Source: Actinopolyspora halophila DSM 43834
Lineage (GTDB): Bacteria > Actinomycetota > Actinomycetes > Mycobacteriales > Pseudonocardiaceae
Direction of reading: 5' to 3'
Assembly: GCF_000371785.1 (NCBI RefSeq)
Contig: NZ_AQUI01000002.1
Coordinates: 1,529,276 to 1,593,275, forward strand
Length of the DNA: 64,000 nucleotides
The position numbers and the translations under genes were made by a program. How positions within the stretch are numbered: position 1 is the stretch's first letter; every line of letters begins with the position of its first letter. Below, in pieces: positions 1-12,622 of the stretch. The notes below the pieces were generated by a model that did not search any database, was not told where the DNA came from, and was given only the letters and a program-made list of their open reading frames with translations.

Positions 1-2329
1 CGTCGCTGACCACGGCCGAACCGGCCGCCGAGTCGAGAAACCCGATGACCCCCTGTGGGCCGAACCGCTGCCGGATCGTCGGCAGCGAGTCGAACTCGAC
101 GATGTAGCCGAGGGCGTCGCCGACGGCTCCGCCCAGCAGCGAACCGACCAACCCACCCGAGGTGGAACGCCCGTTCCGGGACTGCCCGGGCTCGTCCTGC
201 ACGGACTCGGCGTCCTGCACGGACTCGGCGTCCTCCACGGACTCGGCGTCCTCCACGGACTCGGCGTCCTCCACCGGGGTGGCCTGCTCCGCGGCTCCTT
301 CCGGGGGCTCCGACTCCGCCCAGCTCTCCGCAGGCTCCTCCGTGGTTTCCGGCTCCTCCGCGGTTTCCGAATCCTGCGGGGCGACCGGGTCCGCCGCGAA
401 GACCTCGGGGGCCGGGAAGGCGGGACCGAACTCCAGGGTGGTTACATCGTTCTCGCCCGGGTAGCGTCGGGTCCACTGCTCGTCCTGGGGAGGGGTCCCC
501 CCGAACTCGAGCAGCGCGTCCTTGCCCAGGTTCGTGACCGTCTCACGAGCGTGCAGGTCCCGTAACCACACTCCGGGCAGCGCCGAGCTTCCGTACACGG
601 CGCCGGCGAGGGCTCCGCAGATCGCTCCGGTCGAGTCGCTGTCCCCGGAATGATTGACCGCGAGCAGTACCGCACCGGCCAGGCTGTCGGTGCTCAGCAC
701 CGCGCAGACGGCGATGGACAGGGCCTCTGGAGCCGACCAACCCGCCCCGAGCACGTCCTTGAGGCGCTCGGGACTCGGTTTCCCGTGCTCGGACAGGCTC
801 ACGGCGGAGGCCAGTGCCTGTTCCGTGGTGGAATCGGGAACGTGCTCGGCGAGGATCGAGCGGGCCTCGCTCAGGGCCTCGGAGAGCTGCTCCCCGTCCA
901 GCAACCGACGCAGCAGCGCGGCGAACACTCCCGCGGGCAGGTAGCCGCCGGGGGAGCCGTGGGTCAGCGCGGCGCACCCCGCGGCCAGTTCGAACACCTC
1001 GCGCGGATCGGTCGACCACAGCGCGGCCGGGATCGCACGCAACACACCACCGTGCGCCTCGGAGCGCTGCAGCGGGGCGCCGATGCGGCCCGGGGTCCCC
1101 GCGGAGACGAACTCGCGCAGGGCGCTTATGTTGCTGCTGGCCGGTGAACGCACCGAGAAGAGCTCGGGGAGCTCGACCAGCCAGCCGTCCGGCTCGGGAT
1201 GGGTCTCCGCGAAAGGACCCGCCGCGCGCTGCCAGGAGTACCCCTGGGTGTGCAGCCAACGTTGCAGTCCCAACTGGACGGAGGACAACGGCGTGGTGGC
1301 GGCGCCCGAGCGGACCGCGACGTGTCCGCGGATCATCCCCTCGAGGGCGAACAGGGTCAGCTGAACGTCGTCGGTGAACTCTCCGGCATGCTCCCCGCCG
1401 CGGTCGTAGTCGGTTATGCCGTCCGCGCCGTAGCGGCTCCTGATCTGCTCGACCGGGTAGAACTCGACGGGCGCTCCCAGCGCGTCTCCGGCCGCCGCGG
1501 CCAGCAGGCTCCCGAGAAAACGGTCCCCGAACGGCTCCGTGCCGACCGGTTCGTGCTCGGCGGACTCCGCGGGCGTCGGCTCTGCCTCCGGCGTGCTCTC
1601 CTCGGAGATCCGCACCGGCGCGGCTTCGGTGGACGCTCCGTTCCCGGAGTGCCCGGCGGACCGCTCGACGTTCTCGAGGCCGGCCCGCGCCGTGACGGAG
1701 GTGACCTCGGCGGGAGTGCCGCCGACCGGGGCAGCGGGGGCGTCGTTGATCTCCACGGGAAGACCGGCGGCCCGGATCAGGTCCTCACAGGGGACACGGA
1801 CCTTGGTAGAACTGGCGGGGTTCACCTGGAGGTCGACACCGACCGGGCGCATTCCAGCGAGGGAACGCCCGGTCATGCGTTGCCAGCTGGTCCAGTTCTG
1901 CGGCAACTGCGCTTCCGAGGTGAAGACTTGGAGCTGCTTGCGCCCTGAGTGGTGTTCGAGGGTGAACAGGCCGTCGCCCTGCGGCTGTGCGAACAGGATG
2001 AGCTCGGCCTCCAGCAGCGCTCCCAGCAGCGTCTGCCCCGGCGCGTAACCGGTGCTCGTGAGTTGCAGGGCCCGTTCCACGTCGTTGGCCGGAGCGGGTA
2101 GCCGCAGTGCCACGGGGGAGGGGCGGTAGTTCGGGTTCGGTGAGAACTCCTCCGTGAGCTGACCACGTTCGTCCACGCGGAATCCCCCTATGAAACCCCA
2201 AGGTGGTACCTCCGCGTTGGGGTCGGTGAAGATCGGATCCACCACGTACAGCCAGCTGTTCGGCTGTTGCGCTGCCTGTTCCCGCATCGCGGGCGTAATA
2301 GCCGGTCGGCTCGGCTGCTGACTGCTCAT
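1..2329 (-). CDS. SseB-like protein with tandem ADP-ribosylglycohydrolase domains (3' end outside window)
   Basis: The frame is open from an ATG at 2329 to the left edge, giving 776 visible residues. Residues 1 to about 190 look like an SseB-type domain: an early WLYVVDP/WGFIGGFRVD/PNPNYRPSP pattern, then a VFTSEAQLP stretch and a VNPASS motif. An acidic Pro/Glu linker follows. The first ADP-ribosylglycohydrolase fold starts near residue 275 (SLLAAAAGDALGAPVEF). It keeps the metal-ligand signatures FTDD (about residue 320) and NHSGDSDSTGAI (about residue 563), so it is probably active in removing ADP-ribose from a protein or small molecule. A second low-complexity linker holds DAESVE repeats, and a second domain begins near residue 725 (GSLLGGAVGDALGYIVEF); the window ends at its VSD, where the TDD motif is expected. 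Domain calls are from motifs and the substrate is unknown. GGGGGAG abuts the chosen start. Confidence 0.85.
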   Translation of the reverse strand, partial: MSSQQPSRPAITPAMREQAAQQPNSWLYVVDPIFTDPNAEVPPWGFIGGFRVDERGQLTEEFSPNPNYRPSPVALRLPAPANDVERALQLTSTGYAPGQTLLGALLEAELILFAQPQGDGLFTLEHHSGRKQLQVFTSEAQLPQNWTSWQRMTGRSLAGMRPVGVDLQVNPASSTKVRVPCEDLIRAAGLPVEINDAPAAPVGGTPAEVTSVTARAGLENVERSAGHSGNGASTEAAPVRISEESTPEAEPTPAESAEHEPVGTEPFGDRFLGSLLAAAAGDALGAPVEFYPVEQIRSRYGADGITDYDRGGEHAGEFTDDVQLTLFALEGMIRGHVAVRSGAATTPLSSVQLGLQRWLHTQGYSWQRAAGPFAETHPEPDGWLVELPELFSVRSPASSNISALREFVSAGTPGRIGAPLQRSEAHGGVLRAIPAALWSTDPREVFELAAGCAALTHGSPGGYLPAGVFAALLRRLLDGEQLSEALSEARSILAEHVPDSTTEQALASAVSLSEHGKPSPERLKDVLGAGWSAPEALSIAVCAVLSTDSLAGAVLLAVNHSGDSDSTGAICGALAGAVYGSSALPGVWLRDLHARETVTNLGKDALLEFGGTPPQDEQWTRRYPGENDVTTLEFGPAFPAPEVFAADPVAPQDSETAEEPETTEEPAESWAESEPPEGAAEQATPVEDAESVEDAESVEDAESVQDAESVQDEPGQSRNGRSTSGGLVGSLLGGAVGDALGYIVEFDSLPTIRQRFGPQGVIGFLDSAAGSAVVSD
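194..265. repeat. Four 18-bp tandem repeats inside a coding linker
   Basis: The unit GTCCTGCACGGACTCGGC is repeated four times head to tail, with one G/C substitution in the last two copies and a partial fifth copy to about 274. On the minus strand it encodes the hexapeptide DAESVE/DAESVQ between the two ADP-ribosylglycohydrolase domains. The unit keeps the reading frame, so copy number can vary without breaking the protein. Confidence 0.95.
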
Positions 2330-3170
2330 CTCCCCCGCTGCTTCCCGTGTCAAGTTCGTCGGTGTGCCCCAGGGATTCCCGCTACCTGTCGGAGACGATC
2401 TCCCGTGGAACGCGCCCGATCGGGCGTGACGATCGGACGCGACTGGACAAGCGATCGGTTCCGTGCGTCACTGCACGACCGTTACTGTCTCATGACCTTT
2501 TGGAATGAAGATCGGTATATCCTGTTTACCAAACGTGGAAATAGGGGGCGTCTGCTGTCCTGCGGACCCCGCGCCTCGGGAACCGATGACCCGACGGCGA
2601 CCGGAGTGTCGGGGGTAACTTCCGTGCCGCCGCCGGACGGACGCCCCGAGGGCGCCCCACGAGCATGGCGGGGAATCCGGTCCCGGTGGGGTGAGTTGAC
2701 CCGAATTACGCCGAAAGGTTCATGGCAGGACTGCGTCCGGTCCTGATGCGCTCGTGCGACTGCGGTATTTCTTCGGCGCAGGCGGCGCCGAAACGACCAC
2801 GCCTGCCAGGCCGAGGGCCCGCGAGGGGCTCCGCCGAGCGGCCACCTGCGCGAACCGAGTCAACCCAGTCCTGCTGATCTCCCGCTTCGGTCGTGGTGGA
2901 GCCGCTTCGACGCGGGGGAGCCTTCCGAGGCGCCACGGGGCACGAGGGGGTCGCGTCGTCCAGCACGGAGCGTGTGTGCGCTGTGCCCGGGAGAACGGTT
3001 TTCCGGACTTTCGCCGTCTCCGCGCGCGTGGAGCGGTCCACGCTACTACTTTGAAGCGCGGGGATCATTCACTCGCAAATCGATGCGTTCGACGACGCAA
3101 CTTTCGCGTTCTTCTCGCGTCCCCCGGAGTAGCGGAAACGCAACACTGCGATGCAAGGAAGGTGGACGTT
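2330..3170. other. Long intergenic region between divergent genes
   Basis: No reading frame here shows a recognisable protein. The stretch around 2490-2545 is clearly AT-richer than its surroundings (GGAATGAAGATCGGTATA and TTTACCAAACGTGGAAATAG) and is the likeliest place for promoters of the divergent flanking genes. CGATCGG-type words recur between 2405 and 2460. The rest looks like unconstrained GC-rich spacer. Confidence 0.4.
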
Positions 3171-4115
3171 GTGCGTATGCGTAAGACTTTCGCTGTAGCG
3201 GCCGCGGCTTTGACCTTTTTCGGCGGTGTGGGAACGGCTGCCGCCGTGAACACATCCGAGGATTCCGAAACGAATCCGTCCGGTGTCGGTTCCGAGCGGA
3301 ACGGCTTGTTCACCAGTGTCACGGGAAAGTTGGTCCGGAGTGAATCGGGATATTCCATAACGGGGGAGAGCAGCGGTGATCGGTACCTGCTGTCCTCCGA
3401 ATCCGGAATTGTGCGTCCCTACGTCGGCAAACGGGTCAAGGTCACGGGCAGCACCCCGGGTGGCCCTGGTGGCGGCGCGGACCGGTTGGCCGTTCGGACG
3501 GTGGAGCCGGTCGCTCGTGGTGAGCAGACCCCCGAACGTGGGACCACGGAACTGCGATTCCGGGTGAGCACCGACGGGAACGTTCCCGACGGGATGACGT
3601 TCTACGGTTTGTTCGGCAAGCCCGGCCCCGATCCCCACGGCGAGGTCGCGGGCATCGAGGAACTCGGCGCGATCGCGCTGAACGATTTCGACGGTGACGG
3701 GGTCTACACCGCCCCGCTCGGGATGAAGCGGGACAGCCGGGTCGTGGCCCGCGTCGCCGTGGGCAGCACCGCCACGGGGCCGCGCGAGGTGATCCATCCG
3801 CAGAGCATCGTGCAACGGGACAACACGGTCGTGCTGGACGAGGACACCACGGTCTCGACGGACTACCGGGCAGTTCGCCCCTGCGGCGACGTCTCGTTCA
3901 CTCCCGACTCGGACCACGGAGCCTTCGGGATACGGGCGACCGGGGTCGACTGCGGGATCGCCCGCCAGGTAGCGGCCGACGCGGAGGGCGACCTGGGGGA
4001 CAACTATCGCAGTCACGAGTTCACCTGCCTGGCCGACGAATCCGACAGTGAGCTCGGCGGCTACGACTACACCTGCAGGCACGGAGTGCGGAAGGTTACT
4101 TTCGCGGCCTCCTGA
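3171..4115 (+). CDS. Secreted protein of unknown function
   Basis: A GTG at 3171 (an in-frame ATG lies at 3177) follows GGAAGGTGG. The N-terminus MRKTFAVAAAALTFFGG...TAAAV is a typical Sec signal peptide, with cleavage likely after the Ala-rich segment. The mature part has a small beta-rich segment (VTGKLVRSESGYSITGES), then a PDGMTFYGLFG module, and a C-terminal half with four cysteines spaced C..VDCGIARQVA..FTC..YTC. Pairs of disulfides of this kind recur in small secreted actinobacterial proteins. About 314 residues. I do not recognise a named family. It stands alone and ends at a strong hairpin; a longer upstream start is unlikely because it would bury the signal peptide. Confidence 0.8.
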   Translation: MRMRKTFAVAAAALTFFGGVGTAAAVNTSEDSETNPSGVGSERNGLFTSVTGKLVRSESGYSITGESSGDRYLLSSESGIVRPYVGKRVKVTGSTPGGPGGGADRLAVRTVEPVARGEQTPERGTTELRFRVSTDGNVPDGMTFYGLFGKPGPDPHGEVAGIEELGAIALNDFDGDGVYTAPLGMKRDSRVVARVAVGSTATGPREVIHPQSIVQRDNTVVLDEDTTVSTDYRAVRPCGDVSFTPDSDHGAFGIRATGVDCGIARQVAADAEGDLGDNYRSHEFTCLADESDSELGGYDYTCRHGVRKVTFAAS

Positions 4116-4175
4116 GCCGTGCCCCACTCCGCCGGGCGGCAGGTCGCTCCCGCCCGGCGGAGTGTCCGGCACGGC
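4116..4175 (+). terminator. Strong stem-loop terminator after the secreted protein
   Basis: Immediately after the stop, CACTCCGCCGGGCGG (4125-4139) pairs perfectly with CCGCCCGGCGGAGTG (4150-4164). The helix is extended by GCCGTGCC (4116-4123) with GGCACGGC (4168-4175). No T-run follows, as is usual in high-GC actinomycetes. Confidence 0.8.
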
Positions 4176-4300
4176 CGGGGTCGGTCCGTGCCCCAGGAGA
4201 AAACTGTGGGTGCACGTTCGGGTACTCCCCGAGTCTGTCCTATGCGGATCGAAGATAGCGTGGGAGGGTCACTCGGGGTCGGAATTCGGAGAAAACCCAC

Positions 4301-5095
4301 ATGTCGGAAGAACGAGTCGATTCCGGAGGACGGCCTCGGCGGAGTAAGGGGGTGGATTCCCGCCTGCGCCGCCTCCACGCGCTGGACTCGGTGCTGTGCG
4401 GGGCCTCGTGGCTGTCGGTGATCGAACCGGAGGTGGAGGCGCTGGGAGAGCTGGTGGGAACCGGTGCGGTGTGCTTCGACATCGGCGCGGCGTACGGGAT
4501 GTACAGCTTTCCGCTGGCTCGTCTCGTCGGCCCCGCGGGCGAGGTTCACTCCTTCGAGCCTCAGCGCAAGCCGTACCGGATTCTCGCGGCAGGAGCGAGG
4601 CTGGCCGGGATGCGCAACATGCGCGTCGACCGCGCCGCGTTGGGAAAACACCCCGGAACGCGCGTCCTCGCCGTCCCCACCCGGTTCGGATTCCCGGTCC
4701 ACGGACACGCGCACGTGGTTGACGACGTACGCGTTCCGGAATCGGACGGTCTTTTCCGGGGAAAGCGTTCAGTTTCGAGTGAAACGTTCTCGGTGGACCG
4801 GATACGACGCACGCGCGGACTGGACCGGATCGATTTCATGAAAATCGATGTCGAGGGGTACGAGTCCTCGGTGCTGGAGGGGGCGGAGGAAACTCTGGAG
4901 AAATGTCGCCCGAAAATGTTGATGGAGATCGAGCAGCGCCATCTCACGCGGTACGGGACCGAGCCGGAGAAAATCACCGGATGGCTGCACGACCTGGGAT
5001 ACCGTGCCCATGTGCGGCACGGCGGAAAATGGGAACCCGTGGAACGGGTGACCGAGTGGAAACGGAACTACCTCTTCACGGCGCGGACGACGTGA
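4301..5095 (+). CDS. FkbM family SAM-dependent methyltransferase
   Basis: 264 residues. SAM-binding motif I is CFDIGAAYGMY (residues 58-68), followed by the acidic loop EVHSFEP and the FkbM signature FMKIDVEGYESSVLEGA near residues 180-197. The C-terminal EIEQRHL segment also matches the family. Members O-methylate sugars, polyketides or other natural products; the acceptor cannot be inferred, since no glycosyltransferase or biosynthetic gene is adjacent. An SD-like GGAG lies 9 nt before the ATG. The gene is monocistronic and convergent with the sulfur operon. Confidence 0.88.
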   Translation: MSEERVDSGGRPRRSKGVDSRLRRLHALDSVLCGASWLSVIEPEVEALGELVGTGAVCFDIGAAYGMYSFPLARLVGPAGEVHSFEPQRKPYRILAAGARLAGMRNMRVDRAALGKHPGTRVLAVPTRFGFPVHGHAHVVDDVRVPESDGLFRGKRSVSSETFSVDRIRRTRGLDRIDFMKIDVEGYESSVLEGAEETLEKCRPKMLMEIEQRHLTRYGTEPEKITGWLHDLGYRAHVRHGGKWEPVERVTEWKRNYLFTARTT

Positions 5096-5212
5096 GTTCC
5101 GGCGTGTGACGCATCGTGACGGTGCTCCCGTGGCGCGGTTGCCCGAGCAGTCGGCACCGTCGCGAGAGGACCCGCACAACAACCACCCGCACCAGGGGAC
5201 GGCGAACACCGG

Positions 5213-5977
5213 TCAGCCGGCGCGGGACAACCGCGGCCGTTCCAGGAGCGCCCCCAGCGCGGACTCGTACCTGCGCAGCACGAGATCGGCGATCCCGTGG
5301 TCGGCGCCCATGGTCTCGGCCAGCAGCGGAGCGGAGGTGCTCTCCCGTGCGCGTTCGAGCACGCGGTCGGGAAGCCGCCCCGGGGCGAGGAACCACGAGC
5401 CGACGGCGAAACGTCGTGCGCCCGCGGCGCGCAGTCGCTCCACGGCCGTGGGGACGTCGGGTTCGGCGGCCGCGGCGAAGGCCGCCACCACTCCGGCCCA
5501 CGAAGTGCCGCGCCGCCACGTCCCGGCCACATCGGCGACGAGTTCGTTCGCCGGAGGATGGGCGGAACCGGCGCCTGCGAGGACGACACCGAGCTCCTCG
5601 TCGTCCGGGTCGGCGCCTGCCTGCAACAACCGGCGCCAAGCCGCCCCGCGCAGCCGCGGATCGGGTCCGAGCACGCCGGCCGTTCGGACCCGAAGCAGCG
5701 GGTTCCGCTCCTGCGCTTCGGCCACGGCGGTGGGGATGTCCACACTCGCGTGATAGGCGTGGCCGAGCAGCAACGGGACCACGACCGCACTGCTGTGACC
5801 GTCGGAGTGCACGGCATCGAGCACGTCGCCGAGAGCGGGGGCGGACAGGTCGAGGAAAGCCGTGCGCACATCCAGCTCGGGGCGCACGGAGCGGACCACG
5901 TCCAGCAGCCCCCGAATGGTGGCTGCCGAACGCGGGTCACGACTGCCGTGCGCCACCGCGACCAGCGGAGCGTTCAT
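5213..5977 (-). CDS. Sirohydrochlorin chelatase (CbiX/SirB-like)
   Basis: 254 residues. The N-terminal motif VAVAHGSRD places the metal-binding His at residue 10, and the internal GHAYHASVDIP (His73/His76) completes a CbiX-type site in this two-lobed protein. The expected reaction is Fe2+ insertion into sirohydrochlorin to make siroheme, the cofactor of the sulfite reductase encoded at the head of the same operon. It begins 15 bp after cysN and is the last gene before the convergent FkbM gene. Cobalt chelation for B12 is possible in the family, but the context favours siroheme. Confidence 0.88.
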   Translation of the reverse strand: MNAPLVAVAHGSRDPRSAATIRGLLDVVRSVRPELDVRTAFLDLSAPALGDVLDAVHSDGHSSAVVVPLLLGHAYHASVDIPTAVAEAQERNPLLRVRTAGVLGPDPRLRGAAWRRLLQAGADPDDEELGVVLAGAGSAHPPANELVADVAGTWRRGTSWAGVVAAFAAAAEPDVPTAVERLRAAGARRFAVGSWFLAPGRLPDRVLERARESTSAPLLAETMGADHGIADLVLRRYESALGALLERPRLSRAG

Positions 5978-5992
5978 CCCGGTCTCCAGGAA

Positions 5993-7348
5993 TCAGTCGG
6001 CTGCGGCCGCGGCCAACGGAGCCAGGGGGACACCTACGAGGCCGGCGGCGAGTGTCGATCCGTCGGAGGGATCGAGCACGATGAACGATCCCGTGCGCTT
6101 GCTGTTCGCGTACTCGTCCACCGGAAGCGACTCCGAGGTCCGGAAGCGGACCTTGCCGATCTCGTTGAGCTCCAACTGCTCCGGGGCTCCCACCCCGGAC
6201 AGCTCCTGCTCGTCGAACCGGGTGACCAGCTCCGTGACCTTGGCCTGGACGGTCCGTGCTCCGTGCTTGATCAGCACCCGAGCACGCGGCGCGAGCGGTT
6301 TCTCGGCCAGCCAGCAGACCGTGGCCTCGATCTCGTCGGTGACCCGGGGTTGGCCCGCGGCGGAGACGATGACGTCGCCGCGCGCGATGTCCACATCGTC
6401 CTCCAGCAGGACCGTCACCGAACGGCCCGCGGCGGCGCTGGGAGCCGAGCCGTCAGGTGTGTCCACCTTGACCACCCTGCTGTGTGCTCCACCGGGAAGT
6501 ACGGCGACCTCCTCCCCCTCCGAGACGACCCCTGCCGCCACCTGTCCCGCGTAACCGCGGTAGTCCGGGTGCTCGGCGGTGCGCGGACGGATGACGTACT
6601 GCACCGGAAGCCGGAAGGGGGCGTCGTGCGGGTCGGGTGCGACGGGAACGGTCTCCAGGTGCTCCAGCAGCGCTGGGCCCGTGTACCAGGGAGTGCGTTC
6701 GGAGCGCTCCACCACGTTGTCGCCGTGCAGCGCCGAGACCGGAACGGTGACCACGTGGTCGTCGGAGTAGCCGAGCGCCCTGGCGTGCTCGGCGAACTCG
6801 GCCGCGATCGAAGTGTGCACCGACTCGTCGAAATCGACCATGTCGATCTTGTTGACCGCGAGCACCAGCCTGGGAACCCCCAGCAGGGCGAGGACGGCCG
6901 CGTGCCTGCGGGTCTGCTCCAGCACCCCCTTGCGGGCGTCGACGAGCAGCACCGCCAGCTGAGCGGTGGAGGCCCCCGTCACGGTGTTCCTCGTGTACTG
7001 CACGTGTCCGGGGGTGTCGGCGAGCACGAAGGTGCGCTTGGGCGTGGCGAAGTAGCGGTAGGCGACATCGATGGTGATGCCCTGCTCCCGCTCCGCGCGC
7101 AATCCGTCCACGAGCAGCGACAGGTCCGGCTGGCTCAACCCGCGGTCGGCGCTGGCCCGGTGCACGGCCTCGAGCTGGTCGGCCAGCACCGACTTCGTGT
7201 CGTGCAGCAGGCGGCCGACCAGGGTGCTCTTGCCGTCGTCCACGGAGCCCGCGGTGGCGAGCCGCAGCAGATCGGTGTGCACCGGGAGAGCGACCTCGGT
7301 GCCGCTGTCCGGGGCGAATCGCGTGAGGGTCTCGGTCTCGTCGGTCAT
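5993..7348 (-). CDS. cysN: Sulfate adenylyltransferase subunit 1 (GTPase)
   Basis: 451 residues. An EF-Tu-like GTPase with P-loop AGSVDDGKST (residues 33-42), G3 DTPGHVQYTRN and G4 NKIDMVD. It couples GTP hydrolysis to adenylation of sulfate by CysD, making APS. There is no C-terminal APS-kinase (CysC) extension, which agrees with the APS-specific reductase upstream. The ATG overlaps the cysD stop (ATGA), so the subunits are translationally coupled. Confidence 0.96.
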   Translation of the reverse strand: MTDETETLTRFAPDSGTEVALPVHTDLLRLATAGSVDDGKSTLVGRLLHDTKSVLADQLEAVHRASADRGLSQPDLSLLVDGLRAEREQGITIDVAYRYFATPKRTFVLADTPGHVQYTRNTVTGASTAQLAVLLVDARKGVLEQTRRHAAVLALLGVPRLVLAVNKIDMVDFDESVHTSIAAEFAEHARALGYSDDHVVTVPVSALHGDNVVERSERTPWYTGPALLEHLETVPVAPDPHDAPFRLPVQYVIRPRTAEHPDYRGYAGQVAAGVVSEGEEVAVLPGGAHSRVVKVDTPDGSAPSAAAGRSVTVLLEDDVDIARGDVIVSAAGQPRVTDEIEATVCWLAEKPLAPRARVLIKHGARTVQAKVTELVTRFDEQELSGVGAPEQLELNEIGKVRFRTSESLPVDEYANSKRTGSFIVLDPSDGSTLAAGLVGVPLAPLAAAAAD

Positions 7349-8310
7349 CAGAAGTAGCCCTCCCGCTTACGGTCCTCCATGGCGGCCTCGGACATCCTGT
7401 CGTCGGCCCTCGTCGCTCCGCGCTCGGTCAGATGGCTCGCGGCGACCTCGGCGATCACGTCGTCCACCGTGTAGGCCTCGGACTCCACCGCTCCGGTGCA
7501 CGAGCCGTCGCCGACGGTGCGGTAGCGAACCGTCTTCTCGACGACCTGTTCGTCCGCGCCCGGCCCACCCCAGGGTCCCGAGGTCAACCACATGCCGTCC
7601 CGGTCGAAGACCTCCCTGCGGTGGGCGTAGTAGAGCTCGGCGAGTTCGATCTTCTCGCGCTGGATGTAGCGCCACACGTCCAGCTCGGTCCAGTTGGACA
7701 GCGGGAACACGCGCATGTGTTCCCCGGCACGGTGCTTGCCGTTGTAGAGGTTCCACAACTCGGGGCGCTGCCTGCGCGGGTCCCACTGGCCGAAGGAGTC
7801 GCGCAGGCTGAACACGCGCTCCTTGGCGCGGGCCCGTTCCTCGTCCCGGCGTCCGCCACCGAACACGGCGTCGAACCGGTTCTGCTCGATGGCCTCGAGC
7901 AACGGCTGGGTCTGCAGCGGGTTGCGGGTGCCGTCCGGACGTTCGCTGAGCCTGCCGTCGTCGATCCAGTCCTGCACCCTCTCCACGACCAGCCGCAGGT
8001 CGTGCCTGCTCACGAGGTCGTCGCGAAACTGCAGGACCTCCTCGAAGTTGTGGCCGGTGTCCACGTGCAGCAACGGGAACGGCACGGGTGCGGGCCGGAA
8101 GGCCTTCAGCGCCAGGTGCAACAGCACCGTGGAGTCCTTGCCTCCGGAGAACAGGATCACCGGGCGGTCGAACTCCCCGGCAACCTCCCGGAAGATGTGA
8201 ATCGCCTCGGACTCCAGCGCATCGAGGTTGTCCACTTGTGGCGGAGCCTCGGCTATCGCCGGATCTTCCGGCAGGTCGAGATTCTGATCCATGATCGCTT
8301 CCGTCGTCAT
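7348..8310 (-). CDS. cysD: Sulfate adenylyltransferase subunit 2
   Basis: 320 residues. The ATP-pyrophosphatase PP-loop is LFSGGKDSTVLLHL (SGGKDS at residues 55-60), followed by LLHVDTGHNFEEV and the RREEV/GGGRRDEERARAKER segment typical of CysD. It catalyses ATP plus sulfate to APS together with CysN. It lies 114 bp downstream of cysH in the same minus-strand operon. Confidence 0.96.
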   Translation of the reverse strand: MTTEAIMDQNLDLPEDPAIAEAPPQVDNLDALESEAIHIFREVAGEFDRPVILFSGGKDSTVLLHLALKAFRPAPVPFPLLHVDTGHNFEEVLQFRDDLVSRHDLRLVVERVQDWIDDGRLSERPDGTRNPLQTQPLLEAIEQNRFDAVFGGGRRDEERARAKERVFSLRDSFGQWDPRRQRPELWNLYNGKHRAGEHMRVFPLSNWTELDVWRYIQREKIELAELYYAHRREVFDRDGMWLTSGPWGGPGADEQVVEKTVRYRTVGDGSCTGAVESEAYTVDDVIAEVAASHLTERGATRADDRMSEAAMEDRKREGYF

Positions 8311-8424
8311 CAGCGTGCCCTTACACAGTTATCAGTTCACCCCAGCGAGGGATGTCACGGTGCCGGTGGCACCGCAGGCCCGGTCACGGCAGTACCGCAC
8401 CGCGCCATTGCCGCGTTCGTGGGC

Positions 8425-9150
8425 TCAGGCGTGCAGCCCGCACTCCGTCTTCGAGGACCCGGACCAGCGGCCACTGCGCGGATGCTCACCGGCCCCGGGC
8501 TTGGCCGTGCACGGTTGGCACCCGATCGAGGGGTAACCGGCTGGCACCAACGGGTTCACCAGCACGTTGTGCTCGGCTATGTAATTGTCCATGTCCTCGT
8601 CCGTCCAGGCCGCAAGCGGATTCACCTTCACCAGGTTGTTCCGCTCGTCCCAGGTGATCAGCGGAGCGTCCGCTCGGGTGGGCGAATCGACCCGCCGCAA
8701 CCCCGTGATCCACGCCTCGTAGCGGGCGAGGGTGTTCTGCAGCGGAAGAACCTTGCGCAGGTGGCAGCACCGTCCGGGATCCCGCTCGTACAGGCGAGCT
8801 CCCTCGGAGGCGTCCTGCTGCTCCACGGTTTGCTCGGGCATCGCGTCGATGATGTTGACGTCGTACATCTGCGCGACCGCATCCCTGGTGCCGAGGGTCT
8901 CGGCGAAGTGGTAGCCGGTCTCCAGGAAGAGGACGTCCACACCGGGATGGATCTTCGAGACCAGGTCCACGAGCGAGGCGTCCTGCATGTTGGAAGCGAC
9001 GATCAGGTTGTCGCCGAAGGTCCGTGAGGCCCAGGAGAGCACCTCCCCGGCGCTCGCTTCGGACAGCTGCTCACGGCCCTGTTCCACGAGAGCTCCAAGC
9101 TCTTCGTCGCCACGCCGAACGCCGATGTCGGGGGTGCTCTCCGCGGTCAT
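8425..9150 (-). CDS. cysH: Assimilatory APS reductase ([4Fe-4S] type)
   Basis: 241 residues from the ATG at 9150, chosen because GGAGG lies 9 nt upstream and it overlaps the previous stop (ATGA). The catalytic motif KTECGLH (Cys237) is present at the C-terminus. The extra pairs Cys128-Cys129 and Cys211-x2-Cys214 are the [4Fe-4S] ligands that distinguish APS reductases from the PAPS-specific enterobacterial enzyme. It reduces adenylylsulfate to sulfite with thioredoxin. No cysC is in the operon, consistent with direct use of APS. Confidence 0.94.
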   Translation of the reverse strand: MTAESTPDIGVRRGDEELGALVEQGREQLSEASAGEVLSWASRTFGDNLIVASNMQDASLVDLVSKIHPGVDVLFLETGYHFAETLGTRDAVAQMYDVNIIDAMPEQTVEQQDASEGARLYERDPGRCCHLRKVLPLQNTLARYEAWITGLRRVDSPTRADAPLITWDERNNLVKVNPLAAWTDEDMDNYIAEHNVLVNPLVPAGYPSIGCQPCTAKPGAGEHPRSGRWSGSSKTECGLHA

Positions 9151-9338
9151 GGTTGCTCGTCCTCCTCGGTCAGCGCCAATCCTGCGAGTCTTACCGTGAA
9201 CACACGGCGGCACGCCTGGCATTTCCACGCGCCGGCAGGTTCAGCCTGCGGCGTGAGTTCCTCATCGCCGCAGTACGGGCAGTAGAACGGAACGGCCCTG
9301 CCTTCGGGTCCGGAGTCCGTCGAATGTCCCCCGTTCAC
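9147..9338 (-). CDS. Zinc-ribbon microprotein of the sulfite reductase operon
   Basis: 63 residues with two CxxC pairs (YCPYCGDE near residue 20 and WKCQACRRVF near residue 39), so a zinc ribbon or rubredoxin-like knuckle is expected. It overlaps both neighbours by 4 bp, the sir stop at its start and cysH at its end. It is therefore made in step with sulfite reductase and APS reductase. Its role is unknown; electron transfer or assembly of the sulfite reductase are possibilities suggested only by position. Confidence 0.85.
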   Translation of the reverse strand: MNGGHSTDSGPEGRAVPFYCPYCGDEELTPQAEPAGAWKCQACRRVFTVRLAGLALTEEDEQP

Positions 9339-11047
9339 GTTAGCGCCTCATCACTCACGCGGTTGGCCCACTCGGCAAAAGTCTCGTCGGAGGAGCGTTG
9401 TTCGAGGTAGCGACGCACCAAACGCTCCACATAATCGCCCACCTCGGCGGAGGTCACCTTGTGGCCCCGGATCTTGCGGCCGAAGCCGGCGTCCCGGCCG
9501 AGTCCTCCGCCCAGGTGCACTTGGAACCCCTCGACCTGGTTGCCCTCGTCGTCCCGGACGAGCTGCCCCTTGAGGCCGATGTCGGACACCTGGGTGCGCG
9601 CGCAGGCGTTCGGGCAACCGTTCAGATTGACCGTCACGGGCTTTTCGATGTCGCCCTGCACGTCCTTCAACCTGCGTTCCAGGTCCTCGACCAGATCCGT
9701 GGCGCGGTTCTTCGTCTCGACGATGGCCAGCTTGCAGAACTCGATCCCGGTGCAGGCCATGACGCTACGGCGCCAGGAGGAGGGACGCGCGTGCAGTCCG
9801 AGCTGATCCAGCTCGGAGACGAGACTCTCGACCTCGGGGCCCGGGACGTCGAGCACGATCAGGTTCTGCTCCACGGTGGTGCGTATCCGACGCGAGCCCA
9901 CCCGTTCGGCGGCCTCGGCCACCTCGATGAGCTTGGAGCCGCTCACACGGCCTGCCACCGAGGTCACGCCCACGTAGTAGTTGCCGTCCACCTGCTCGTG
10001 AACCCCCACGTGGTCGCGCGCGCCCTCCGGGATCGGGGGAGCGGGGCCGTCGAGGAGCTCACGGCCGAGGTACTCGTTCTCCAGCACCTCGCGGAACTTC
10101 TCCGCGCCCCAGTCGGCGACCAGGAACTTCATCCTGGCCCTGTTGCGCAGCCGCCGATAACCGTAGTCCCGGAATATCTGCACCACGGCGTTCCAGACCT
10201 CGGGCACGTCCTCGAGCGGAATCCAGGTGCCCAGGCGCACGGCGAGCTTGGGGTTGGTGGACAGCCCCCCACCGACCCAGAGGTCGAAGCCGGCCCCGTG
10301 CTCCGGGTGGTGCGCTCCGATGAACGAGACGTCGTTCGTCTCGTGCACCACGTCCTGGCGCGGGGAGCCGGAGATGGCCGTCTTGAACTTCCTGGGGAGG
10401 TTGGACAGCGACTCGTCGCCGATGTAGCGGTGGGTTATCTCACGGACGGCGGGCGTGCCGTCGACGACCTCGTCGGCCGCGATCCCGGCCACGGGGGACC
10501 CGAGGATCACGCGCGGGCAGTCGCCGCACGCCTCGGTGGTGTAGAGCCCGACGGACTCCAGCTCCCGCCAGATGTCGGGCATGTCCTCCACGCGGATCCA
10601 GTGCAGCTGGACGTTCTGCCGGTCGGTGACGTCGGCGGTGTCGCGTGCGTAGGTCCGCGAGATCTCACCGATGACCCGCAGCTGCTCGGTGGTGAGCGCC
10701 CCGCCGTCCACGCGGATCCGCAGCATGAAGTAGGAGTCGTCCAGCTGCTCCGGCTCTATGGTGCCGGTTCGGGCGCCCGGAATGCCGGGGGCCCGCTGGG
10801 TGTAGAGCCCCCACCAGCGAAAACGGCCGCGCAGGTCGGAGGGGTCGATGGAGTCGAAACCACGCAGCGCGTAGATGTTCTCGATGCGGCTGCGCACGTT
10901 GAGCGGGTTGTCGTCCTTCTTGGACTGTTCGTTGCCGTTGAGTGGTTCGCGGTACCCGAGCGCCCACTGTCCTTCGGCGCCGCCCTTGCCCTTGCGGGCG
11001 GGGGAACGGCGTTTCGGCTGGCTCGGTGCTTCCGTCGGGGGGACCAT
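9335..11047 (-). CDS. sir: Ferredoxin-dependent sulfite reductase (SirA/NirA family)
   Basis: 570 residues with the two-repeat siroheme sulfite/nitrite reductase architecture. The coupled siroheme/[4Fe-4S] site is formed by MACTGIEFCKLA (C-x5-C) and NGCPNACAR (C-x3-C). Tyr82 (WWGLYTQR) and Cys174 (TEACGDCPR) align, at a constant offset of 13, with the Tyr69-Cys161 pair that is covalently linked in the M. tuberculosis sulfite reductase. Sulfite rather than nitrite is therefore the likely substrate. It catalyses six-electron reduction to sulfide. GGAGG sits 8 nt before the ATG. It is the first enzyme gene of the sulfur operon. Confidence 0.95.
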   Translation of the reverse strand: MVPPTEAPSQPKRRSPARKGKGGAEGQWALGYREPLNGNEQSKKDDNPLNVRSRIENIYALRGFDSIDPSDLRGRFRWWGLYTQRAPGIPGARTGTIEPEQLDDSYFMLRIRVDGGALTTEQLRVIGEISRTYARDTADVTDRQNVQLHWIRVEDMPDIWRELESVGLYTTEACGDCPRVILGSPVAGIAADEVVDGTPAVREITHRYIGDESLSNLPRKFKTAISGSPRQDVVHETNDVSFIGAHHPEHGAGFDLWVGGGLSTNPKLAVRLGTWIPLEDVPEVWNAVVQIFRDYGYRRLRNRARMKFLVADWGAEKFREVLENEYLGRELLDGPAPPIPEGARDHVGVHEQVDGNYYVGVTSVAGRVSGSKLIEVAEAAERVGSRRIRTTVEQNLIVLDVPGPEVESLVSELDQLGLHARPSSWRRSVMACTGIEFCKLAIVETKNRATDLVEDLERRLKDVQGDIEKPVTVNLNGCPNACARTQVSDIGLKGQLVRDDEGNQVEGFQVHLGGGLGRDAGFGRKIRGHKVTSAEVGDYVERLVRRYLEQRSSDETFAEWANRVSDEALT

Positions 11048-11115
11048 TCGGCCGACCTCCGGGATGACGTGGCGTTACTACGCCGCGAGGAGACTGTCTC
11101 GGGAAAGCTTGCTCA

Positions 11116-11143
11116 CGGTTCGAAAAGAGCGATTTCCGAACCG
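11116..11143 (-). promoter_or_regulatory. Stem-loop between leader peptide and sir
   Basis: CGGTTCG (11116-11122) and CGAACCG (11137-11143) are perfect inverted repeats in the 121-nt space between the leader-peptide stop and the sir start. No T-run follows on the transcript, so if it controls expression it may do so by Rho-dependent or translational attenuation. Functional assignment is inference. Confidence 0.4.
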
Positions 11144-11168
11144 GGCGTCGTGAAAACGCGGCGACGGA

Positions 11169-11261
11169 CTAACCGGCGTTACGGCACAGCGCGCTCGACA
11201 CCCGCCGCAGATCCAAGTAGCGCCGGGCGACCAGCAGCAGCTCGGTGGGGGGCGCGTCCAT
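11169..11261 (-). CDS. Leader peptide of the sulfate-assimilation operon
   Basis: A 30-residue ORF starting MDAPPTELLLVARRYLDL and ending RRVSSALCRNAG. The RRYLDLRRVSSALCR core is the signature of actinobacterial leader peptides found ahead of sulfur-metabolism genes (x-R-R-x-x-D-L-x-R-V-x-S-A-x-C-R). It carries a single near-terminal Cys codon. It lies directly upstream of sir on the same strand. A cysteine-supply sensor acting through ribosome stalling is the expected role, by analogy with cysteine-responsive attenuation in mycobacteria; the mechanism here is inferred. Confidence 0.85.
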   Translation of the reverse strand: MDAPPTELLLVARRYLDLRRVSSALCRNAG

Positions 11262-11395
11262 ACTCGTCAGCCTGCCAGGAGCTCACCGGGTGGTCCAGCG
11301 TCATCCGCATGTTGGGACGCTGTGACCGGCGTTACCCGGCGGTTCCAGGGGTTCGGGATCCGGTCCGGACGTCGGTCACTGGGACACTGGGTGAC

Positions 11396-12622
11396 GTGAC
11401 CGCACAACCACTGACCGGTGAGACCCCTCCCGCGGACGGGAGTTTGCCCGAAGGGGCGTTGGAAGGCGTGGGAAAGCGTCCGTTCGGGGTTTACGTGCAC
11501 GTGCCGTTCTGCGCCACCCGGTGCGGCTACTGCGACTTCAACACCTACACCGCCGACGAACTGGACGGCGGCGGCAGCCTCGGAGGGTGGCTGGAAGCGC
11601 TCAAACGGGAACTCCGGCTCGGCGCCCGCGTGCTCGGTGGCCCGGAACAGGCCCCCAGGGCGGAGACGGTGTTCGTCGGAGGGGGGACTCCCTCCCTGCT
11701 CGGGGGAACCGGGCTGGCCGAGGTGCTGGACGCGGTGCGTGACTCGTTCGGCTTGGCCGCGGACGCCGAGGTGACCACGGAGGCCAATCCGGAGTCCACA
11801 TCGCCCGAGTTGTTCGACACGATCAGGCGGGCGGGCTACACCAGGGTTTCGCTGGGCATGCAGTCGGCGGCCGAACACGTGCTGCGCGTGCTGGACCGCA
11901 GGCACACCCCGGGGCGGGCCGTGGCCGCGGCGGACGAGGCGCGCGCCGCCGGATTCGAGCACGTCAGCCTGGATCTGATCTACGGCACTCCTGGGGAGAG
12001 CACGCAGGACCTGCGCACGACGCTCGATGCCGTGCTGAGCGCCGGGGTCGATCACGTGTCGGCCTATTCGCTGATCGTCGAGGAGGGCACGGCGCTGGCC
12101 CGGCGGGTCCGGCGCGGCGAGCTTCCCGTGCCGGACGAGGACGTCCTCGCGGAGAAGTACGAACTGATCGACAGCGTGTTGAGCGGTTCGGGACTGCGGT
12201 GGTACGAGGTCTCGAACTGGGCCTCCGCCGAAAAGGCGCGTTGCAGGCACAACATCGGTTACTGGAGCGGTGGTGACTGGTGGGGTGCGGGGCCGGGCGC
12301 GCACAGCCACGTCGGCGGGGTCCGCTGGTGGAACCTCAAGTTCCCCGCGCGCTACGCCGCGACCCTGGCCTCCGGAAACTCCCCCGCCGCCGGCAGGGAG
12401 GTGTTGACCGAGGAGGACCGCCGCATCGAGCGCGTGATGCTGGAGCTGCGCCTGGACGGCGGGCTCCCCGTCGAGGTGCTCGACCGAGCAGGACTCGACG
12501 AGGCGCGGCAGGCCGTGGAGGACGGACTGCTCCGGGGCGAGCAACTGCGGGCGGGCCGCTGTGTGCTCACCGACAGGGGGAGGTTGCTCGCGGACGGGGT
12601 CGTGCGGCGTTTGATCGGTTGA
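11396..12622 (+). CDS. hemW: Radical SAM heme chaperone HemW (HemN-like)
   Basis: 408 residues from a GTG at 11396. The radical-SAM cluster motif is CATRCGYCDFN (Cys39, Cys43, Cys46), followed by GGGTPSLL, TEANPES and the HemN C-terminal domain starting around LDGGLPVEVL. The protein lacks the extra N-terminal residues of true anaerobic coproporphyrinogen oxidase, and is shorter. The heme-chaperone assignment is therefore more likely than HemN. Older annotations call such proteins oxygen-independent coproporphyrinogen III oxidase. Confidence 0.9.
   Translation: MTAQPLTGETPPADGSLPEGALEGVGKRPFGVYVHVPFCATRCGYCDFNTYTADELDGGGSLGGWLEALKRELRLGARVLGGPEQAPRAETVFVGGGTPSLLGGTGLAEVLDAVRDSFGLAADAEVTTEANPESTSPELFDTIRRAGYTRVSLGMQSAAEHVLRVLDRRHTPGRAVAAADEARAAGFEHVSLDLIYGTPGESTQDLRTTLDAVLSAGVDHVSAYSLIVEEGTALARRVRRGELPVPDEDVLAEKYELIDSVLSGSGLRWYEVSNWASAEKARCRHNIGYWSGGDWWGAGPGAHSHVGGVRWWNLKFPARYAATLASGNSPAAGREVLTEEDRRIERVMLELRLDGGLPVEVLDRAGLDEARQAVEDGLLRGEQLRAGRCVLTDRGRLLADGVVRRLIG

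Follow-up and report, generated by a model that had tools for sequence, protein, structure and literature searches.

An ADP-ribosylglycohydrolase array fused to a type VII-associated domain in Actinopolyspora halophila: a candidate toxin-less polyvalent immunity locus

What purpose might be served by a protein that joins an SseB-like domain to a series of ADP-ribosylglycohydrolase (ARG) domains? The question arises at the left edge of the window, the 64,000-nucleotide stretch of the Actinopolyspora halophila DSM 43834 genome analysed here, where gene 1 lies on the minus strand with its ATG at position 2329 and its frame open to position 1. When the flank was read from the genome, the gene was found to pass the window edge by 2,969 nt, and the full protein has 1765 residues. 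A profile search placed three PF03747 domains in it (593 bits summed over three stretches, cut-off 26.2), and the order is an N-terminal module (N module) followed by ARG modules A, B and C. The sequence-only reading had described two glycohydrolases in one chain; there are indeed several, but the count is three. It had also seen a second ARG domain begin at the left edge, and the window does stop inside an SDD motif of module B. Beyond its view lay the third domain of gene 1, which is dead, and a neighbouring gene with two further dead ones (modules D and E), so that genes 1 and 2 jointly hold five ARG domains. The features, with gene calls beyond the window made from open reading frames filtered by third-position GC, are as follows.

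Gene 1, 5' 776 codons: window 1..2329, minus strand; the remainder lies left of the window, to G000:C2:1526307.
Gene 1, complete: L009:11308-16605, minus strand, 1765 aa; contig C2 of the A. halophila genome (G000).
N module, residues 24-185: window 1775..2260, minus strand; NF033532 and PF07179 matches, AlphaFold pLDDT 83.
ARG module A (PF03747), residues 267-609: window 503..1531, minus strand; full catalytic residue set.
Module A TDD metal-ligand motif, T319 D320 D321: window 1367..1375, minus strand; invariant in 29/29 loci.
Module A TH motif, T456 H457: window 959..964, minus strand; kept in 7/7 Actinopolyspora, lost in 16/22 others.
Module A DSDS metal-ligand motif, D563-S566: window 632..643, minus strand; DSDST in 28/29 loci.
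Linker A-B, 113 aa, acidic, Ala/Pro-rich by composition and lengths: window 164..502, minus strand.
In-frame tandem repeat DAESVE inside linker A-B: window 193..274, minus strand; 18-bp unit, 4.6 copies, 98% matches.
ARG module B start (module B is residues 723-1064): window 1..163, minus strand; ends within SDD, full catalytic set in the genome.
Gene 2: L009:8801-11041, same strand as gene 1 and next to it; 746 aa from the first ATG/GTG/TTG codon.

The five ARG modules differ in their catalytic residues. The binuclear metal site ([TS]DD plus DxD[ST]) and the TH pair are present in A and B and incomplete in C, D and E. The FTDD and GDSDS motifs of the first ARG domain, which had been called complete, are so (residues 318-321 and 562-566), and TH (456-457) and Glu 289 are kept as well. 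Module B, once the left flank is included, has SDD, GDSDS, TH and Glu, and its catalytic Asp residues are in place. It can be aligned with DraG (PDB 2woe, 3g9d) across the TDD and GDxDT motifs, which read TDDT and GDADTT in the alignment with 2woe. In all seven Actinopolyspora the metal ligands, TH and Glu of A and B are retained, and both modules are predicted to be hydrolases. In C, D and E metal aspartates are missing in all loci read, and the TH pair is retained in nearly all. A multi-substrate eraser is still conjectural: no more than two of the five modules could be catalytic. Outside Actinopolyspora the TH histidine of A is often lost and SDE often replaces SDD in B; many Saccharopolyspora show both changes, so catalysis may be fading there.

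The SseB-type N terminus that had been proposed for gene 1 is supported by two profiles, PF07179 (Pfam SseB, 24.7 bits, cut-off 21) and NF033532 (NCBIfam, type VII secretion system-associated, 134.5 bits, cut-off 85). The SseB name has no secretion meaning by itself: SseB of E. coli (serine sensitivity) and the translocon SseB of Salmonella are different proteins with a common name. The type VII link of gene 1 is drawn from the NF033532 match and the gene context. NF033532 was matched in 150 of 200 sampled genomes of the family Pseudonocardiaceae, and no type VII secretion genes lie near this domain at the gene 1 locus. The top PDB match of the AlphaFold model is TTHA0547 (probability 1.00, E 2.6e-3, TM 0.32 by query length), which is suggestive of a shared fold; Tic22 gave an E of 1.3 at best, and when the N-module sequence was searched against the PDB, a single match resulted, at chance level.

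The acidic linker with DAESVE repeats is present as described earlier, but the repeat is species-specific and so no defining part of the protein. The linker of A. biskrensis has no DAESVE repeat, although its N module is 99% identical, and among the species read the repeat is specific to A. halophila. It is thus regarded as local linker variation, and a functional signature in the linker was ruled out by its absence from this closest species.

Gene 2 lies outside the window and encodes module D, which is without the first ~45 profile positions, and module E. The structural matches of its AlphaFold model (pLDDT 79) include DraG and ARH3 (best E 2e-8) and also Tri1 and 8za7, the ARH immunity protein of Listeria. 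Upstream of the listed frame (L009:11042-11190) there is no ATG, GTG or TTG where relatives start, and a CTG stands there; comparison with A. biskrensis suggests that this upstream CTG is the true start. The gene 1 and gene 2 frames of A. biskrensis are ~15 bp apart. Gene 2 is followed by an enoyl-CoA hydratase gene. A Barstar-family gene (L009:7401-7835) is a conserved neighbour of the array, separate from it as far as seen, and in other genera it is preceded by a small secreted-looking gene that is perhaps the RNase of the barstar. The locus has no toxin gene, and an Rfam scan of window 1-12000 gave no match. A specialised secretion locus had been expected just beyond the left edge; this can be set aside, because the 20 kb around gene 1 in the A. 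halophila genome contain no ESX or ART (ADP-ribosyltransferase) gene.

Orthologous loci were defined by searching GTDB genomes with the N module as query, which yielded 28 named loci distributed over Actinopolyspora, Saccharopolyspora, Halosaccharopolyspora and Halopolyspora. Gene 1 has three ARG domains in 28/28 and gene 2 has two in 27/28; no gene 2 was found in Halopolyspora algeriensis. Marked variation between related strains is absent, one architecture extending over all 28 species loci apart from the one without gene 2. N modules are 73-99% identical among loci, and in a scan of 299 genomes of the order Mycobacteriales the scores fall from 394 to 157 bits outside the four-genus group. 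The site is constant in the loci read: apart from some insertions, the array lies between sulfate-assimilation genes with cbiX and the enoyl-CoA hydratase and barstar genes. At L047 in genome G137, gene 1 is divided between two frames of 1012 and 1325 aa, through either a genuine break or an error in the sequence.

Selection on the modules was estimated by the Nei-Gojobori method between close pairs. The dN/dS values are 0.00-0.14 for N, 0.07-0.35 for A, 0.04-0.32 for B, 0.04-0.44 for C, 0.11-0.77 for D and 0.08-0.41 for E; all are below 1 and mostly 0.0-0.5, and constraint is tightest on the N module. By these sequence comparisons purifying selection predominates in every module, including those with a dead site. 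Dead module E is 61% identical between genera, compared with 62% for module A, and has invariant runs such as GRTMMRTLIAFAK. Because the dN/dS is low and E is as conserved as A, the dead modules are maintained and not decaying.

An earlier suggestion linked the protein to an ART toxin or to a specialised secretion locus. No such gene is present locally, but the link holds through relatives, in which ARG genes stand beside type VII ART or TNT toxin genes. A co-location census covered 90 ARG loci in 28 genomes of the family Pseudonocardiaceae at a radius of 5 kb. A TNT toxin lay within this distance of 7/90 loci (0.35 expected), an ART of 4/90 (0.05 expected) and NF033532 of 19/90 (0.31 expected), the last count including the orthologues of gene 1 itself. 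The expected counts come from a simple uniform model, and the sampled genomes are related to one another. The census took in four genomes in which the association or a TNT-SseB fusion had first been seen (G006, G012, G025 and G119), and without them there are still four TNT loci and three ART loci. At about 80 of the 90 loci neither an ART nor a TNT toxin lies close by.

The individual arrangements are compact, with toxin and ARG genes running in one direction or overlapping. In G006 (L087), genes for YbaB, a WXG-type protein, an 865-aa PF03496 ART protein and a three-ARG protein follow one another on one strand and overlap, and a further ARG is flanked by TNT genes. G017 (L095) has a T7SS_signal-ART gene with an ARG gene 12 bp on and SseB-like genes beyond; in G025 (L089) the order is TNT, ARG-ARG, ARG, ART; and in G012 (L106) the gene of a T7SS_signal protein overlaps an ARG gene. 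In a further genus (g2), the same genomic site (in G001, flanked by the cys genes and echA-barstar) is occupied by SseB-SseB-ARG, ARG-ARG and single ARG genes. An ART gene heads the cluster in one of the two g2 genomes read; its product has 216 aa and matches PF03496 in the C-terminal half of the profile only. A maximum-likelihood tree of 84 ARG domains places module A in a group (97/92) with toxin-adjacent or SseB-fused ARGs, namely those of G017, G006, G025, G012 and G005 and the SseB-SseB-ARG proteins of g2. TNT (NADase) domains were also seen fused directly to an SseB/NF033532-like C terminus (L093:4325-6772, and in G119, G045 and G027).

Elsewhere in the A. halophila genome, a T7SS_signal plus Scabin-like ART toxin gene on contig C1 (L105:6223-8803) overlaps the following NF033532 gene, a standalone paralogue that holds the usual immunity position after the toxin gene. 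This contig is 94.8 kb long and perhaps a plasmid, and WXG-like small genes lie upstream of the toxin gene. The genome contains no PF03496 match and no toxin near any ARG gene; its two TNT proteins are both far from any ARG, and its WXG100 genes lie away from the gene 1 locus. Two other ARG genes were observed. P0003 (L010:6950-11347, G000:C2 ~4.81 Mb; 1465 aa) has two degenerate ARG domains and is situated between rpsL-fusA-tuf and rpoC; it groups in the tree with ARG proteins of the rpsL locus, and TNT, ART and SseB-ARG genes are found at its orthologous sites in Saccharopolyspora and others. At L011:3420-7653 (G000:C2 ~4.82 Mb) a TPR-CHAT gene overlaps a lone ARG gene of canonical type, with TDD and GDTDT intact, and the two may form a CHAT-ARG pair.

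Our leading reading, to which we give an even chance, sees in the gene pair a polyvalent immunity (polyimmunity) array that has no toxin and descends from type VII ART-toxin/ARG loci. Because relatives of the modules adjoin type VII-exported ART or NAD-destroying toxins, the pair would probably be a standing antidote that has lost its toxin. PMC3482391 describes ARG (Imm-ARG) as an immunity protein that acts enzymatically against R-S-E ART toxins; its polyimmunity proteins are fused immunity domains in operons that lack a toxin and turn over fast. Modules A and B share their fold and catalytic set with Imm-ARG, with Tri1 of Tre1/Tri1 (PDB 6dre/6drh) and with Lmo0067 of the Listeria ART-ARH pair (PDB 8za7); all three adjoin exported ART toxins, as do relatives of module A. 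They are single-domain proteins with a toxin partner, whereas the gene pair has five modules, three of them dead, is fused to NF033532 and has no toxin. Gene 1 was rejected as a member of the Tri1 equivalog (123 bits, far below the cut-off of 490) and of the DraG equivalog (TIGR02662; 143.8 bits, cut-off 337); no DraT-like partner was seen near the gene pair. A search of a literature library found no paper on either the Listeria ART-ARH pair or immunity to Scabin-type type VII toxins.

With polyimmunity proteins, as PMC3482391 presents them, the gene pair shares several immunity-type domains per chain and a small operon without a toxin; ARG arrays are absent from the types listed in its section consulted here. 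Polyimmunity loci are described in it as variable, whereas the gene pair is conserved and syntenic and most of its repeats are catalytically dead. We counted in favour the N-A-B-C plus D-E architecture, the A and B residues, the low dN/dS, the toxin co-location, the tree, the g2 site, the C1 toxin pair and the published Imm-ARG and polyimmunity precedents, and against it the missing local toxin, the unusual stability and synteny of the array, the toxin-free state of most ARG loci, the presence of the four discovery genomes in the census and the possible fading of catalysis in many Saccharopolyspora. The polyimmunity frame fits the gene pair best, with two departures, the mostly dead modules and the stable array.

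In such an array the N module would recognise an exported toxin or the target that the toxin modifies, and modules A and B would remove ADP-ribose by hydrolysis from the cell components that carry it. Modules C, D and E, without their metal site, would be folded, under selection and non-hydrolysing, and may bind toxin, target or each other, serving as decoys or as a scaffold on the long acidic linkers. More tentatively, the N module may itself be an immunity domain that binds type VII ART-fold toxins; fusion to ARG would then give a two-mode polyvalent shield, in which the N module and the pseudo-hydrolases capture while A and B erase.

A less likely competitor is a domesticated housekeeping regulator, a fixed core gene freed from toxins that reverses endogenous ADP-ribosylation of protein or DNA in the four genera. 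Vertical inheritance, the fixed position beside sulfate-assimilation genes in the loci read, the strong constraint on the N module and the locus without a toxin all agree with it, but no partner transferase was found nearby, and the tree and the relatives point to toxin loci. A common operon with the cys genes was ruled out, because the genes between them and the array differ between genera.

PMC9503650 links ARG systems, actinobacterial ones included, to an SseB domain with a proposed chaperone role. An anti-phage system of the type predicted there, in which ARG and the SseB chaperone strip ADP-ribose put on host proteins by viral transferases, is improbable here. The ARG-centric systems of its section 3.8 share with the gene pair an actinobacterial ARG plus SseB domain and no adjacent transferase. 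No Nudix/WYL regulator, phosphatase, REase or ARPP-like partner was seen with the gene pair, however, and its ARG array is tandem and fused. Among the neighbours scanned within ~10 kb there is no Nudix or WYL regulator, phosphatase or other accessory gene, and no rhodanese-type phosphatase, REase or Macro/NADAR gene was found among the neighbours of gene 1 scanned; the locus is stable, without rapid variation, and PADLOC gave no match.

A neutral remnant of tandem duplication, with functionless, decaying extra copies, would accord with the loss of metal ligands in three of five modules and the decay of module B in many Saccharopolyspora, but it is disfavoured and very improbable, as frames stay open in the 28 named loci, dN/dS is below 1 in all modules, and dead E is as conserved as active-site A.

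The polyimmunity reading would supply a functional proposal for NF033532 and the large SseB-ARG fusions, which are otherwise bare annotations. It would widen enzymatic immunity to ART toxins so as to include multi-module proteins whose repeats are mostly conserved pseudoenzymes, and may tie the type VII-secreted ART and NADase toxins of soil actinomycetes to specific candidate antidotes.
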